Translations under genes and position numbers: made by a program | NCBI GenBank assembly: GCA_900469625.1 | Contig: UBXV01000049.1 | Span: 1 to 49,449, forward strand | Origin: Hyphomicrobiales bacterium | Lineage (GTDB): Bacteria; Pseudomonadota; Alphaproteobacteria; Rhizobiales; Rhizobiaceae | DNA: 49,449 nt | Direction: 5' to 3' | Shown here: one piece after another, positions 2,382-21,753 of the stretch | How positions within the stretch are numbered: position 1 is the first letter of the stretch | Layout: each line of letters opens with the position of its first letter | The notes under the pieces: generated by a model | Told to the model about the DNA's origin: nothing | What the model saw: only the letters and a program-made list of their open reading frames with translations | The model's database searches: none

Positions 2382-4988
<2,607 letters not shown>

Positions 4989-5004
4989 GTCTTACCTCCG
5001 TAGC

Positions 5005-5107
5005 CCAACAGGCCCGCGTCGCGGCACCCGCTGGTGTTTCAGGATCAGGCTCCCGCATTCGGCGAGCCTGTCATCGGGCGTTGACCCGCACCTTGCGCGG
5101 GATCAAC
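5005..5107 (-). promoter_or_regulatory. Structured clpB 5' leader with three stem-loops
   Basis: Between the predicted transcription start (about 5113) and the clpB ATG (4988) the minus strand can form three successive hairpins. Hairpin 1 (5080-5107) pairs GTTGA-CCCGC with GCGGG-TCAAC around one bulge. Hairpin 2 (5046-5070) pairs CAGGCTC with GAGCCTG. Hairpin 3 (5005-5034) pairs CCAGCGGG with CCTGTTGG through two G-U wobbles and ends about 8 nt before the GGAGGT ribosome-binding site. A role in temperature control of translation or in mRNA stability is possible but only inferred. Confidence 0.45.
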
Positions 5108-5120
5108 ACGTCCGAAGCGA

Positions 5121-5149
5121 ATATGGGGCAGCGGTTTTGGAAATTAAAG
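5121..5149 (-). promoter_or_regulatory. RpoH (sigma-32)-type heat-shock promoter of clpB
   Basis: On the minus strand, CTTTAA (RC of 5144-5149) is followed after 15 nt by CCCCATAT (RC of 5121-5128). TCATCC precedes the -35 box. This matches the sigma-32 consensus CTTGAA-N13-17-CCCCATnT with one mismatch in the -35 hexamer. It places transcription start near 5113, about 125 nt upstream of clpB. Confidence 0.75.
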
Positions 5150-5191
5150 GGATGATTGCATGTCGCAAATAGGAAATCTTCCCAACTGACG

Positions 5192-5226
5192 AGACGACCA
5201 CGCATGAACATCATGCGTGGTCGTCT
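5192..5226. repeat. Perfect 16-bp palindrome with 3-nt loop
   Basis: Starting with AGACGACCACGC and ending with GCGTGGTCGTCT, the arms pair over 16 bp around an ACA loop. It lies 65 nt past the dehydrogenase stop codon and about 43 bp upstream of the clpB -35 box. No T-run follows on either strand, so it is not a standard intrinsic terminator. It may insulate clpB from upstream transcription or bind a dimeric regulator. Confidence 0.6.
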
Positions 5227-5290
5227 GCAGCCGGATCGGTGGCATCGCGGCCTCGGCCCGGGACGCGCTGCCCGGGCGGCGGACGAAAGC

Positions 5291-6298
5291 TCAGTGGCCG
5301 GCAAACGTCGTGCCGAACTCCTTCATCCGCGAGACATAATAGGCGGGCTCGATCAGCACTTCCGGCAGGTAAAGACCCGCCTTCGGCGGCTCGCCGCCGG
5401 CAAGGCCGAGCATGCGTTCGACCGCGAGCGCCACACCGAGCGCCGTCAGCGGCGCCTGGCCTTCAGGGTGCACGATCTCATGCCTGCGCACTACCTGCTC
5501 CCCGGTCTTCGACCGCCCCTCGATTTCGAGCGCGATTTCTGTCGAGAACGGCTCGCCGCGCCGACGGCTGGCGGAAACGCTGTAGGCCATATCCAGGCGG
5601 ATTTCCTTGGCACCGGTTCTGGCGGCGAGCGCCATGACGTCAAAGGGCGAATAGGCCACGGCATCGAGTTCGACGCCGTCGACGCTGGTGTAGCGTGCGT
5701 TCGCCTCCTGCCCGCTCACCCAGTGCAGCTTGCCGTCCTTGACCGTGAGCGAGGCCGGCGCGGTTCCGGTAATGCGGTTGTAATCGGCAAGTGCTGCCGG
5801 CCCGCCCATGTCCTCTTCGTCAAGGAGCACGCCGATGCGGATCGCGTCGACGGTCTCGTAGGATGAAAGCGCTTCGAGCACCGGGAAGATGGCGGCACCT
5901 GCCAGCCAATGGCTGGCGAGCAGGATCGGGGCCTTGTCCGGCGCATGGATATACTGCGCGACCTCGGGCCCGATCTCGAATGTTCCGCTGGAGACACTGA
6001 CATAGGGGATGCCCTTTTGCTGGGCGTAACGCATCGAGGTCAGCCTCTCGTCCTTGACGAAGATCACCACGGCGCTGAAGGCCGCATCGGCGGCAAGGCC
6101 GAGATCGGCGCGGTCGAGATCGATCCGCACACCATTCGCCCCGCCAACTTCGCTGGCGATCGCCTGCGCCCGGCCAAGATCCCGGCCGCCGATTGCCAGC
6201 GGCAGATCGGGGTACAGCCGGCGGATCGCCTTGGCCGCCTGCGACCCGACGACGCCGGAACCGCCGATGATCAGGACGGGTGAGAACTTGCTCGACAT
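5291..6298 (-). CDS. Saccharopine dehydrogenase-like NAD(P)-dependent oxidoreductase
   Basis: Probable cytoplasmic oxidoreductase with an N-terminal Rossmann fold. The dinucleotide loop GGSGVVGSQ lies within the first 25 residues and is followed by GGRDLGRA, as in the saccharopine dehydrogenase NADP-binding domain. The remaining roughly 220 residues match no specific enzyme I can name, so the substrate is unknown. AGGAG sits 8 nt before the ATG at 6298; the ATG at 6304 (two residues longer) would be too close to it. It is divergent from a TetR regulator across a short region with a candidate operator, so it is probably that regulator's target. Confidence 0.7.
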   Translation of the reverse strand: MSSKFSPVLIIGGSGVVGSQAAKAIRRLYPDLPLAIGGRDLGRAQAIASEVGGANGVRIDLDRADLGLAADAAFSAVVIFVKDERLTSMRYAQQKGIPYVSVSSGTFEIGPEVAQYIHAPDKAPILLASHWLAGAAIFPVLEALSSYETVDAIRIGVLLDEEDMGGPAALADYNRITGTAPASLTVKDGKLHWVSGQEANARYTSVDGVELDAVAYSPFDVMALAARTGAKEIRLDMAYSVSASRRRGEPFSTEIALEIEGRSKTGEQVVRRHEIVHPEGQAPLTALGVALAVERMLGLAGGEPPKAGLYLPEVLIEPAYYVSRMKEFGTTFAGH

Positions 6299-18083: not shown

Positions 18084-18293
18084 ATGAAAATCAGCGCCCG
18101 CAATCGCTTCAAGGGTAAGATCGTCGATGTCGTCAAAGGGGCGACGACCGCGCATGTGCGCATCGATCTCGGTGGCGGCGCCATCGTCACGGCCTCCATC
18201 ACCAATGAGGCTGTCGACGAACTCGGCCTCAAGGTCGGCGGCGACGCCTATGCCGTCATCAAGGCATCCGACGTGATGGTCGCGATCGACTGA
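18084..18293 (+). CDS. Molbindin: TOBE/Mop domain molybdate-binding protein
   Basis: Small cytoplasmic protein of 69 residues made of a single TOBE (Mop) domain: the start MKISARNRFKGKIVDV, then GATTAHVRIDLGGG, SITNEAVDELGL and VIKASDVMVAI follow the Mop repeat pattern. Mop proteins assemble into oligomers that store or buffer molybdate or tungstate, so this is a metal-homeostasis protein. GGAGG 8 nt upstream fixes the ATG at 18084. Its stop codon is only 4 bp from that of the convergent trmO, the last gene of an importer operon with a Mo-box-like site upstream. That placement suggests the two units serve the same metal. Confidence 0.88.
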   Translation: MKISARNRFKGKIVDVVKGATTAHVRIDLGGGAIVTASITNEAVDELGLKVGGDAYAVIKASDVMVAID

Positions 18294-18297
18294 GCGC

Positions 18298-18822
18298 TCA
18301 CGCCTTCTTGCAATAGTGGGCGGTGCCCGTGTCCCCGGTCTCGAAATCGCCCGGCTGCGGCGGCGCGATCGGCTTGAACAGCGTGCGGTCGGGCTTCAGG
18401 TCGAGGAGCGGCGTGCCGTCGAGGCAATCGAGCCCGCGCACCAGCAGCACATTGCCCTGGACGGCTTCCAGCTTGACGATCGACGTCCCGATCGGGTTCG
18501 GCCTAACCGGCGAGCGCAGGGCAAAGGTGCCGTGCGTTTCACCATTGTTGGCCGGGCTCTGCAGCACGAGGTCGCGGCGCGACCGGTCCAGCCAATAGAG
18601 AATTTCCAGCCGTTCGAAGCGCTCGACACCCTTCAGCGCCTCGACCCACGGCGCAAAGATCTCGATCCGGCAGATCGGACCGTCATGGCGTCCCTGGCGC
18701 GGGCAACCAAGCCGTGAGACCCATGGTGTCGAAATGTGACCGATGAAGGTCAGCCCCGCGTCGGTCGCCTCGGGTGGCGTGATCGAGACTTCGTTTTCCC
18801 GGATTTCATTTTCGCGAACCAT
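18298..18822 (-). CDS. trmO: tRNA (N6-threonylcarbamoyladenosine(37)-N6)-methyltransferase TrmO (TsaA/YaeB family)
   Basis: Family that transfers a methyl group from SAM to t6A37 next to the anticodon of certain threonine tRNAs, improving decoding. The 174-residue protein has the TsaA-like beta-barrel core, with conserved GRHDGPICRIEIF, LRSPVRPNPIGTSIVKL and LDLKPD. AAAGGA lies 7 nt upstream of the ATG. It starts 15 bp after the ATPase gene on the same strand, so it is the fourth gene of an importer operon. It could equally be a TsaA-domain protein with a metal-related role, since such genes often sit beside metal transporters. Confidence 0.75.
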   Translation of the reverse strand: MVRENEIRENEVSITPPEATDAGLTFIGHISTPWVSRLGCPRQGRHDGPICRIEIFAPWVEALKGVERFERLEILYWLDRSRRDLVLQSPANNGETHGTFALRSPVRPNPIGTSIVKLEAVQGNVLLVRGLDCLDGTPLLDLKPDRTLFKPIAPPQPGDFETGDTGTAHYCKKA

Positions 18823-18837
18823 GCCGCAGTCCTTTCG

Positions 18838-19614
18838 TCAGGTCTTGTTTCGTGGTGCGCAGAGGCGTGCGTCGCTGCCGGCAAGGGTGCCGATCACCAC
18901 ATCGATGTCATAAAGTTGCTTGAGCGCGTCGGCTGTCAGCACCGCTTCGGGTGGACCAAGTGCCGCGATCCTGGATTGGAACACCAACGCCACCCGGTCG
19001 GCCACCCGAAACGCGTGGTCGGGATTGTGGGTCGACAGGACGATCGAGACGCCCTCGCCGGCTAGCTCGCGCACCCGGTCGAGCACCCGCATCTGGTGGC
19101 CGTAGTCGAGGCTCGCCGTCGGCTCGTCCATGACCAGGATGGACGGCTCCTGCGCGAGCGCCCGGGCGATCAGCGCAATCTGGCGTTCGCCGCCGCTGAT
19201 CTCGGTATAGGCACGGCTTGCCAGGTGGCCGATGCCGAGCCGTTCCAGCGTGGCCGCAGCCACCTCGCGATCCCGGCGGCCGGGCGTTGCAAACAGGCCG
19301 ACATGCGGCGCACGGCCCATCAGTACGAGATCTTCGACCGTGAAGGGAAAAAGGGCTGCATGGGCCTGCGGCACATAGGCGATGCGCGACGCCCGCTCAC
19401 GGCCAGACCAGGCGCCGATCGGCCGGCCGTCGAGACGGATTGTTCCAGCGCGCAAGGGAACGAGCCCGAGCAAGGTCTTGAACAACGTCGTCTTGCCGGC
19501 GCCGTTCGGCCCGAACAGCACCAGCACCTCGTTTTCCTCGAGTGTGAAGCTGATGTCCTGGCCGACCAGGCGGCCGCCATAGCCAAAGGCGATCTGGTCG
19601 ACATCCAGCCTCAT
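18838..19614 (-). CDS. ABC transporter ATP-binding protein (FecE/BtuD type; possible molybdate/tungstate importer)
   Basis: Cytoplasmic ATPase of a type II metal-chelate importer, 258 residues. Walker A GPNGAGKT at 35-42, Q-loop VPQAHAAL, signature SGGERQ, Walker B ILVMDEPTA and the H-loop STHNPDH are all present. The ATG at 19614 overlaps the permease stop codon by 4 nt (ATGA), showing translational coupling. Annotation by homology alone would say iron/siderophore. The Mo-box-like site upstream of the operon and the molbindin gene at its end favour molybdate or tungstate, an inference explained in the findings. Confidence 0.88.
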   Translation of the reverse strand: MRLDVDQIAFGYGGRLVGQDISFTLEENEVLVLFGPNGAGKTTLFKTLLGLVPLRAGTIRLDGRPIGAWSGRERASRIAYVPQAHAALFPFTVEDLVLMGRAPHVGLFATPGRRDREVAAATLERLGIGHLASRAYTEISGGERQIALIARALAQEPSILVMDEPTASLDYGHQMRVLDRVRELAGEGVSIVLSTHNPDHAFRVADRVALVFQSRIAALGPPEAVLTADALKQLYDIDVVIGTLAGSDARLCAPRNKT

Positions 19615-20639
19615 TGCCAGCCCTTTCGCCCTGACGCGAGCAGAAAGAGGAAGAACGGCGCACCGACGGTCGCCGTCAGTATACCGAGTGGCACCTCGAT
19701 CAGCGCGATGCTGCGCGCCAGCATGTCGGCAACCAGCAGATAGGCGGCACCCAGCGCCATCGAGACCGGCAGGAGCCGGACAAAATCCGGGCCGACGATG
19801 AGGCGCGCCACATGCGGGATGACGAGGCCGATCCAGCCGATGATCCCGGTGATCGAAACGGCGGCAGCCGTGATCAGCGTTGCCGCAAGAACCAGTACCA
19901 CGCGCAGCCGTCCGGTATCGATGCCGAGAGCCTTTGCCTCTTCCTCGCCGAGGGTCATGACATTCATCCGCCAGCGCAGGAGAAACAGCGCGATGATGCC
20001 GACGACAAGCGCCGGAAGGATGGAGATGATGTCGCCTGACGTGACCGATGCCAGGCTGCCGAGCAGCCAATAGGTGATGGCCGGCAGCTGATCGTAGGGA
20101 TCGGCGAGGATCTTGATCAGCGATATGCCAGCGCCGACGAGCGCACCGACGGCGATGCCCGCAAGCACGAGGACGAGCACGGGATCGCGGTTGCGGATCG
20201 CTGCGGCCACGGCATAGGCCGACAGGACGGCAATCAGCCCGCCGGCGAAACTCAGCAACTGGATGACGCCGACCGGCAGCGACAGAAAGATGCCGACCAC
20301 GGCGCCGAAGCTCGCGCCGGCGGAAACGCCGAGGATATCGGGCGAGACCAGCGGATTGCGAAACAGGCCCTGATAGGTGGCACCGGCCGCCGCAAGGGCC
20401 GCGCCGACAAGAAGACCGGCGAGCACTCGCGGCAGGCGGATGTGCCAGAAGACCGTCGCCACCGTCTCATCCGCCGGCGCACCGCCAAGCCATGCCCGGA
20501 TCTCGGTAAAGAGATCCGAGAGGCCGGCGTCGAACTTGCCGATGGTCATCGACAGAACGGCGAGTGCCAACAGCCCGGCGATCGCAAGCAGAAACGACGG
20601 GCCGAGCGATCGGCGCCTCGATATCCTGCGTTGCGTCAT
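19611..20639 (-). CDS. ABC transporter permease (FecCD/BtuC family)
   Basis: Inner-membrane permease of 342 residues with about ten hydrophobic segments, as in BtuC and the molybdate permease MolB. Family landmarks include RLPRVLAGLLVGAALAAAG, YQGLFRNPLVSPDILGVSAGA and, near the C-terminus, FIGLVIPH-like GWIGLVIPHVARLIVG (the coupling region). It overlaps both neighbours by 4 nt, so binding protein, permease and ATPase are translated as a coupled unit. Presumably a homodimer, since no second permease gene is present. Confidence 0.9.
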   Translation of the reverse strand: MTQRRISRRRSLGPSFLLAIAGLLALAVLSMTIGKFDAGLSDLFTEIRAWLGGAPADETVATVFWHIRLPRVLAGLLVGAALAAAGATYQGLFRNPLVSPDILGVSAGASFGAVVGIFLSLPVGVIQLLSFAGGLIAVLSAYAVAAAIRNRDPVLVLVLAGIAVGALVGAGISLIKILADPYDQLPAITYWLLGSLASVTSGDIISILPALVVGIIALFLLRWRMNVMTLGEEEAKALGIDTGRLRVVLVLAATLITAAAVSITGIIGWIGLVIPHVARLIVGPDFVRLLPVSMALGAAYLLVADMLARSIALIEVPLGILTATVGAPFFLFLLASGRKGWQ

Positions 20640-21673
20640 TGCGTCGCCGGCAGGGCGCCCTTGAGCAGCGCCGCCAGTTGCGCGTCGTCAAGGTCCACCT
20701 GGTAGAAGAGCCTGTAGAACGCCCGCGTCTCGGCCTTCAGGTCCCCCTTGTAGTGATCGCCGTAAAGCAACGCCTCGAGCCAGCGGATGCCGATCAGGCG
20801 GTTGATGCCCGGCGGTGAATCGAACCAGCCGAAGGGCAGCGACGGCGCGTTGAACACCTGCCCCTTCGCGACCGCCTCAACCTTGCTCCACACCGGATCG
20901 GCCGCAACAGACCCGGCGAACTTCGGGCTTGCGGCGATGACCACCTCCGGGTTCCAGGCGAGCACCTGTTCCGGCGACACCTGGGTCAGACTGCCTTTCC
21001 CGGCGGCGGCGGCGACATTGACGGCACCGGCGGCCTCGAGAATTTCGAGATTGATCGAGCCGGCAAGGCCCGTCTCCAGGCCGTCGGGACCGCGGCCGTA
21101 ATAGACCCGCGGGCGCTTGTCCGCCGGCACCGCCGCCAGGGTGTCGCCCAGCTGCTTCAGCGTCTCGTCGGCATAGTCGGCAAGCTTGCCAGCCCGCTCC
21201 TCGGCACCGAGCATCACGCCGAGGCTGCGCAGGGTCTCGGCGCTCTTGCCGAAGGAACCGTCGATCAGCACATAGGGAATGCCGGTCTGGCTCTGCACCT
21301 TGTCGGCAAGCGAGGCATAGGTCGCATCCACCGTGCCGACGTCGATGATGACGTCGGGCTTGGCAGCCAGCACCGCCTCGATGTTCGCCGTTCCACCCTT
21401 GCCCGTCAGCCGGCCATAGGTCGGCAGGCCGCGCACCGCCTCGATCAGATAGGGCTTTTCGTCCGCCTTCAGCTCGCGCACCCAGCCCGCCAGTTTTTCC
21501 GGCGCAATCGCATAGATCAGCACCGATGCCGGCGGACCGGCCGCCAGCACCTTGCCGATATGATCGGGAAGCTCGACCGTGCGGCCGGCGGCATCTGTGA
21601 ACGGTTTCGCCTCGACGCCAAATGGTATCAGGGCAAGAAGGGCGCCGATGGCGCCGGCGAGGTATCTGTTCAT
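20636..21673 (-). CDS. ABC transporter substrate-binding protein (FepB/BtuF class III; possible molybdate/tungstate binder)
   Basis: Periplasmic binding protein of 345 residues. Signal peptide MNRYLAGAIGALLALIPFGVEA is expected to be removed before KPFTDAAGR. Two lobes joined by a rigid helix are implied by the FepB/BtuF fold: a first lobe through PDVIIDVG and a second through WNPEVVIAASP, with SPPGINRLIGIRWL near the end. The class includes iron-siderophore, haem, B12 and molybdate (MolA) binders, and the sequence alone does not settle the ligand. It is the first gene of the operon and has a ModE-like dyad 57 bp before its ATG. Confidence 0.85.
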   Translation of the reverse strand: MNRYLAGAIGALLALIPFGVEAKPFTDAAGRTVELPDHIGKVLAAGPPASVLIYAIAPEKLAGWVRELKADEKPYLIEAVRGLPTYGRLTGKGGTANIEAVLAAKPDVIIDVGTVDATYASLADKVQSQTGIPYVLIDGSFGKSAETLRSLGVMLGAEERAGKLADYADETLKQLGDTLAAVPADKRPRVYYGRGPDGLETGLAGSINLEILEAAGAVNVAAAAGKGSLTQVSPEQVLAWNPEVVIAASPKFAGSVAADPVWSKVEAVAKGQVFNAPSLPFGWFDSPPGINRLIGIRWLEALLYGDHYKGDLKAETRAFYRLFYQVDLDDAQLAALLKGALPATQ

Positions 21674-21729
21674 GGTTGAAGCCTGTTCATGGAGGTGCGG
21701 ACGGTGGTTCGGGGGCGACTATGGCACAG

Positions 21730-21753
21730 CGTTATATCCGTGGGAATATCTCG
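21730..21753. promoter_or_regulatory. Mo-box-like dyad (candidate ModE operator) upstream of the importer operon
   Basis: CGTTATAT at 21730-21737 and ATATCTCG at 21746-21753 form a 24-bp dyad with an 8-bp centre. The left half is identical to the half-site I recall from the E. coli modA operator, and the right half keeps ATAT and CG (6 of 8 positions of the mirror ATATAACG). Total length also equals that operator as I remember it. On the minus strand TATAAC within it could be the -10 box of the importer operon, so a bound repressor would block transcription when molybdate is plentiful. Confidence 0.45.

Follow-up and report, generated by a model that had tools for sequence, protein, structure and literature searches.

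The locus described here raises the question of why a gene of the type recorded as a tRNA methyltransferase should close a row of genes for an ATP-binding cassette (ABC) importer that lies behind an apparent molybdenum operator. The window, that is, the whole stretch of 49,449 nt analysed (contig UBXV01000049.1 of assembly GCA_900469625.1, a soil-dwelling member of the Rhizobiaceae, from the Ensifer group, filed as Hyphomicrobiales bacterium), carries on its minus strand a molA-like, a molB-like, a molC-like and a trmO-like gene, for whose relatives the database records give the names "iron ABC transporter" and "tRNA methyltransferase TrmO". The genes probably form a molybdenum-regulated importer operon of the MolBCA type, in which trmO would be the methyltransferase gene of a ModE regulon and its product would probably not be directed at N6-threonylcarbamoyladenosine 37 (t6A37) of tRNA. 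In silico, the assignment of this probable operon for molybdate or tungstate import to ModE-type control is well supported.

The operator of ModE type (Mo-box), a 24-bp dyad CGTTATAT-N8-ATATCTCG at 21730–21753, was located 56 nt upstream of the ATG of molA (20636–21673, minus strand), the first gene after it, which encoded a 345-aa periplasmic substrate-binding protein (SBP) of the family Peripla_BP_2. It was followed on the same strand, with an overlap of 4 nt at each junction, by molB (19611–20639), encoding a 342-aa FecCD/BtuC permease (PF01032, 285.9 bits), and molC (18838–19614, ATG at 19614), encoding a 258-aa ATPase (PF00005) for which the top NCBIfam model was a corrinoid-type ATPase, matched under the cut-off of that model. 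The final gene of the presumed operon, trmO (18298–18822, minus strand), started 15 nt past the ATPase stop codon and encoded a short TrmO-type (class VIII) methyltransferase of 174 aa (PF01980, 103.4 bits; TIGR00104, 109.4 bits against a cut-off of 93.25). The stop codon of trmO was 4 nt away from that of mop (18084–18293, plus strand, frame open from 18069), which encoded a single-TOBE molbindin (PF03459, 65 bits; TIGR00638, 85.4 bits against a cut-off of 55); since mop is convergent with the operon, it is a neighbour rather than a member. The coordinates given by the initial annotation held exactly on the minus strand of this contig (C64) of a 6.54-Mb genome, and so did the dyad, the gene overlaps and the spacings. 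A consensus scan detected no sigma-70-type promoter around the operon.

When Mo-boxes were scored as matches over the 16 arm positions, with the same pattern reversed as a control, the dyad agreed with CGTTATAT-N8-ATATAACG at 14 positions; in first-order Markov simulations, none of 400 copies of the window scored 14 and five scored 13. Its arms and N8 spacing fit the ModE consensus ATCGCTATATA-N6-TATATAACGAT as quoted in PMC2700814. In the whole genome, five sites with no more than three mismatches were found against two for the reversed control; the best was in the modA promoter (15/16), the second was the dyad of the window, and no others reached 14/16. A further 13/16 site was located 42 nt from the Mo-box of the modA promoter, and two more Mo-box-like sites with three mismatches each were observed at C50:369695 and C55:254269, which are probably due to chance because the reversed control also yields two. 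The palindrome CGNTATAT-N8-ATATAACG was thus found ahead of molybdenum genes, above chance and repeated in relatives, and the operator proposed by the initial annotation was borne out. Upstream of mop in this window, no Mo-box scoring at least 12/16 was present.

Both modABC and a gene for ModE were present in the same genome, the one convincing ModE being located at C62:44446–44691, adjoining modABC. This ModE has 130 aa, scored 85.5 bits against a curated cut-off of 98.5, and matched the DNA-binding part of the models only; it consists of a helix-turn-helix domain with no TOBE/Mop sensing domain, and a full-length, molybdate-sensing ModE was not found in this genome. In this respect the regulator differs from that of the known ModE regulon, and the absence of the TOBE domain means that direct repression by molybdate-loaded ModE, as initially proposed for this operon, is not what the sequence suggests; the ModE-type site and the gene for a ModE were supported, the sensing mechanism was not. 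The short ModE of Agrobacterium tumefaciens is reportedly tied to molybdenum-cofactor status rather than to direct sensing of molybdate.

The transporter genes combine, in one row, a FecCD permease, a single ATPase and a Peripla_BP_2 SBP, as in MolBCA (HI1470-1472), the type II molybdate/tungstate importer of Haemophilus influenzae, with which all three component families are shared and to whose MolA the SBP is related in sequence and fold (3psa being the second-best match of the sequence search). In H. influenzae, according to PMC4031551, the low-affinity molybdate system exists alongside ModBC-A, and molB is repressed in a molybdate-dependent manner by an unknown factor. The present operon differs in having a Mo-box before it, a terminal methyltransferase gene and an adjoining mop. 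The product of mop, a predicted molybdate binder, shares the single TOBE domain of Mop molbindins (TIGR00638), and a single-TOBE storage protein is likewise found in the tungstate-binding Tub of Eubacterium limosum (PMC11980592). Of 43 related SBP loci, scanned over the 300 nt preceding the SBP match and its first 60 nt, 10 had a Mo-box of at least 13/16 ahead of molA, in Ensifer, Rhizobium, Mesorhizobium and two further Rhizobiales; Mop adjoined 10 of the 43 and TrmO also 10. ModE or ModA was found beside molABC relatives at five loci (L012, L016, L017, L039 and L040), TupA-like, ModA, trmO, MolABC and TOBE genes occurred in one neighbourhood in Indioceanicola, and the gene row in Ketogulonicigenium was moeA-DUF2478-trmO-molABC. 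As judged from sequence and gene context, the substrate of the importer is probably molybdate or tungstate.

The occurrence of trmO was surveyed in 199 genomes of Rhizobiaceae, 27 of which carried a trmO of the window type at 1e-40, giving 26 places after the genome under study was left out. A Mo-box of at least 13/16 was observed at 17 of these places, so that the placing of TrmO under molybdenum control, suggested at the outset from the single locus, extends to relatives. In 13 cases the box was upstream of the called start of trmO by no more than 200 nt, and in four it preceded mop or molA leading into trmO, the molA of one of them (L274) being a remnant. Over the 26 loci (314 kb), 25 Mo-boxes of at least 13/16 were counted, one of which (L276) was away from trmO, versus none for the reversed pattern. 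Five loci (L264, L265, L266, L268 and L273) had a Mo-box 11 to 32 nt ahead of trmO, as its start was called, although no Mop, MolAB or Mod transporter could be recognised up to 6 kb away. Elsewhere trmO was divergent from modA with two Mo-boxes between them (L194, L261 and L267) or one (L263), or stood beside Mop-ModABC-ModE (L197). The gene recurs with Mo-boxes and with two unrelated molybdenum transporters, and its standing as a recurrent gene of the molybdenum regulon in Rhizobiaceae, not a passenger, is well supported; in many of these bacteria the ModE regulon takes in a TrmO-type gene. Close relatives often retain trmO behind this switch although they lack the transporter, so the true function of the gene seems to be connected with molybdenum.

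A search of 397 genomes from the phylum detected relatives of the window methyltransferase in 57 of them at an E value limit of 1e-18, which mostly excludes standard full-length TrmO. From this draw and the alphaproteobacterial one (289 genomes), minus the place under study and a broken TrmO_N match below cut-off (G003), 87 loci were read over about 6 kb per side, less at contig ends. Mop, Mol or Mod neighbours were present in 10 loci, all among the 33 whose protein shared at least 150 bits with that of the window (10/33 versus 0/54 below; Fisher 2e-5, other cuts giving 7e-5 to 2e-3). A quickly built tree of 97 rows contained 25 rows labelled as molybdenum-linked; 24 of them belonged to a single group with 47 members (support 89, not starred), and the remaining one was a Comamonas homologue located ahead of modABC. 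The rows came from the two draws, the loci found through the SBP and hand-chosen plasmid matches, omitting those below 60 bits save five put in by hand (including Comamonas and E. coli); six rows that were duplicates, degenerate, fused or fragmentary were also left out. With rows so mixed and selected, the proportions in the tree are not unbiased.

Several observations weigh against the interpretation given above. The fold of the SBP was nearer to 4pag, 4ovk and 4hn9 than to MolA, the nearest, 4pag, being a structure with no named ligand, and ferric YiuA gave a nearly equal Z score. Since the fold is about equally near YiuA and MolA, a clear contrast with iron transporters is not supported, and the argument for the specificity of the transporter rests on regulation and gene neighbourhood, not on the SBP fold. 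No Mo-box of at least 13/16 was present before molA in 33 of the 43 related SBP loci, Methylobacterium included. Nine of the 26 Rhizobiaceae trmO places (L270, L272 and L278-L284) lacked a Mo-box, among which L281-L283 were more distant (150 to 159 bits), L278 and L284 adjoined Mop, and L284 is truncated by its contig. Eleven Bradyrhizobium-like copies (L198-L208) had neither a Mo-box nor recognised molybdenum neighbours, and no molybdenum linkage was observed in the annotated stretch around a Ti-plasmid copy or around a copy on an R. leguminosarum plasmid, beside a short ATPase gene. The p values quoted for the 87 loci overstate the association, as the 150-bit cut was chosen post hoc and the rows are related.

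Two alternative explanations bear on these points. By the first, the transporter imports a chelate of iron, or of another metal, as the automatic annotation has it, with the Mo-box being incidental or a sign of cross-talk; the SBP fold leaves room for it, but the recurrence of Mop, ModA, ModE and TupA-like neighbours together with Mo-boxes speaks for molybdenum, and no Irr-type palindrome was found in the window, Fur and RirA sites not having been scanned. Import of an iron chelate is thus quite unlikely, and the initial claim that a siderophore annotation would be wrong is partly supported, being favoured by the MolA-like SBP, the adjacent mop and the Mo-box and weakened by the near equality with YiuA. 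By the second, trmO shares the operon through an accident of gene order. The absence of trmO from 33 of the 43 molABC loci, some of which end at contig ends, and the separate, boxless Bradyrhizobium-like copies would fit such a bystander, but the Mo-box is often kept whether trmO follows molC, precedes molA, diverges from modA, adjoins mop or stands alone, and trmO is ahead of molA also in Paracoccus, with a 13/16 Mo-box upstream of trmO-molABC, and ahead of modABC in the distant Comamonas homologue. An accidental association is therefore very unlikely.

The window methyltransferase shares with the class VIII S-adenosylmethionine (AdoMet)-dependent methyltransferases TrmO/YaeB (COG1720) the N-terminal domain and the AdoMet residues, which in TrmO_N are Q25, R92, D125 and K136 (E. 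coli numbers). The residues R, D and K were aligned in all 52 rows of an alignment in which the Gln column was gapped, and in a separate alignment the PRQ of the window protein lined up with that of E. coli. The nearest solved structure was 3okx (RPA0152; 2e-61), and a single-sequence structure model of the methyltransferase was discarded (mean predicted local distance difference test score, pLDDT, 30.8). The protein differs from TrmO/YaeB in the Mo-box control of its gene and in lacking the C-terminal DPRxxY domain, a motif that only E. coli TrmO itself possessed among the 52 rows. In PMC4132733, the C-terminal DPRxxY domain of E. coli TrmO, with its Asp and Arg, is described as necessary for formation of the methylated nucleoside m6t6A, and production of m6t6A by short archaeal homologues is doubted, other targets being suggested. 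In the clade of the window protein, a recurring tail K-P-D-R-x2-F-x-P-x-A was observed, also in Bradyrhizobium-like rows with no molybdenum linkage.

A third explanation, that the protein is a functional TrmO able to methylate t6A37 of tRNA-Thr despite lacking the C-terminal domain, with molybdenum scarcity thereby shifting threonine decoding, has to be weighed against this background. It draws on TIGR00104 being an equivalog model whose cut-off the window protein exceeds, on the retained AdoMet residues, which might permit tRNA activity without the C-terminal domain, a further point to set against the interpretation favoured here, on the gene being the sole TrmO_N match of its genome, and on the reality of the Mo-box linkage. 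Besides the missing domain and the doubt about the short archaeal proteins, it is opposed by the absence of a TrmO_N match from 256 of 289 alphaproteobacterial genomes (33 had one, 32 of them above cut-off), by second short TrmOs alongside molybdenum-linked copies and by a fusion of TrmO_N to a lyase (see below). On balance a tRNA substrate appears unlikely. The translation link is unproven for a protein with no DPRxxY domain, and the metal-linked adjustment of translation through t6A37 that the initial annotation had envisaged is not supported.

In the favoured interpretation, molABC-trmO would be an operon for a BtuCD-type (MolBCA-like) oxyanion importer that is turned on by a shortage of molybdenum or of its cofactor, the short ModE of the same genome acting as repressor at the Mo-box 21730–21753. 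The importer would supplement modABC, with the product of the convergent mop buffering the incoming molybdate or tungstate, and the trmO product would be a short methyltransferase of class VIII that depends on AdoMet and has specialised in the metabolism of molybdenum, with a target most likely other than t6A37. If this interpretation is true, both record names mislead across a group of plant-associated and soil bacteria, many of which need molybdenum to reduce nitrate or fix nitrogen; an AdoMet enzyme whose relative RPA0152 has a solved structure would also gain a physiological setting, making its substrate directly testable. No paper linking TrmO/tsaA with molybdate, modABC or an ABC transporter was found in the open literature, and trmO as a member of a molybdenum regulon is new relative to the searches made.

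Other contexts of the TrmO family were also observed. A second, unlinked short TrmO was present in three genomes with a molybdenum-linked trmO, G411, G436 (in which the linked copy is degenerate) and G438. At L214:5881–6327, a trmO copy that diverges from modA and has a 14/16 Mo-box looks degenerate (deleted segment, in-frame stop), and the genome carries a second short TrmO. On the Salmonella plasmid NZ_CP022016.1 (L158:3615–5414, plus strand), TrmO_N and Lyase_1 domains formed one fusion protein. Its gene was clustered with those for another lyase, an ELFV dehydrogenase and a Peripla_BP_2 binder and with genes carrying MoeB- and MoaD/ThiS-like annotations, and the cluster looks like one for small-molecule biosynthesis, perhaps of a metallophore. 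On a Phaeobacter piscinae plasmid (L154:5953–11406, plus strand), a related short TrmO was upstream of an ABC importer of the SBP_bac_5 (peptide/nickel) type, the models for which scored below their cut-offs, and a gene for a vanadium-dependent haloperoxidase was nearby; L238 was similar, with two trmO copies that were alike across the aligned segments. The second TrmOs, the lyase fusion and the peptide/nickel importer context are hints, not proof, in favour of a metal-connected small molecule over tRNA as the substrate.

Regions shared with receptors provide a further connection. One family of TonB-dependent receptors was divergent from molA or trmO at L013, L014, L041, L102 and L273; the same family was represented at L012, beside ModE, and had matches at L259 and L260. 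Mo-boxes of at least 13/16 were located within the shared region or at its border at L012, L013, L014, L041, L102 and L273, but not at L259 and L260. At L273 the receptor region (3559–5727, minus strand, and 5700–5980) shares its Mo-box region with trmO, and at L145 a TonB receptor shares one with molA or trmO; in Paracoccus, a different TonB receptor was ahead of trmO-molABC. The receptors of L273, L012, L013, L014, L041, L102 and L145 matched models for siderophore and B12 receptors below cut-off. The L273 type was rare, being found in three of the 199 Rhizobiaceae genomes at 1e-80; two of the three homologues (L286 and L287) had no Mo-box of at least 13/16 nearby, and no member of the family was detected at 1e-80 in the genome under study. 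These findings suggest that some of these bacteria import molybdenum as a chelate. The TonB and Mo-box regions (L013, L014, L102, L145 and L273), the lyase-TrmO_N cluster and the TrmO beside a peptide/nickel importer make it conceivable, as a tentative extension, that the regulon "TrmO" acts on a small molecule within an economy of chelated molybdenum, methylating a molybdenum ligand so that the metal is loaded, released or recycled. Under molybdenum scarcity, ModE would then permit expression of the TonB receptor (in some relatives), the BtuCD-type importer and the class VIII enzyme, and the methylated ligand might be a chelator, either taken up or made by the cell itself, or an intermediate of the cofactor.

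Among the remaining neighbours of trmO in Rhizobiaceae, an ABC importer was encoded downstream in the same direction at L275:795–5195 (minus strand), where a 13/16 Mo-box was 59 nt before trmO, and in line with trmO at L272:3101–5902 (plus strand); in both, the permease and ATPase were weakly ModB- and ModC-like. At L273:6511–7383 (minus strand), a gene for an XdhC/CoxI-type molybdoenzyme maturation factor ended convergently with the Mo-box-controlled trmO. The closest named relatives at the locus itself were Ensifer oleiphilus and E. adhaerens, which shared 90% to 91% identity in the SBP and an identical gene order as far as the ABC-F and choloylglycine-hydrolase genes.

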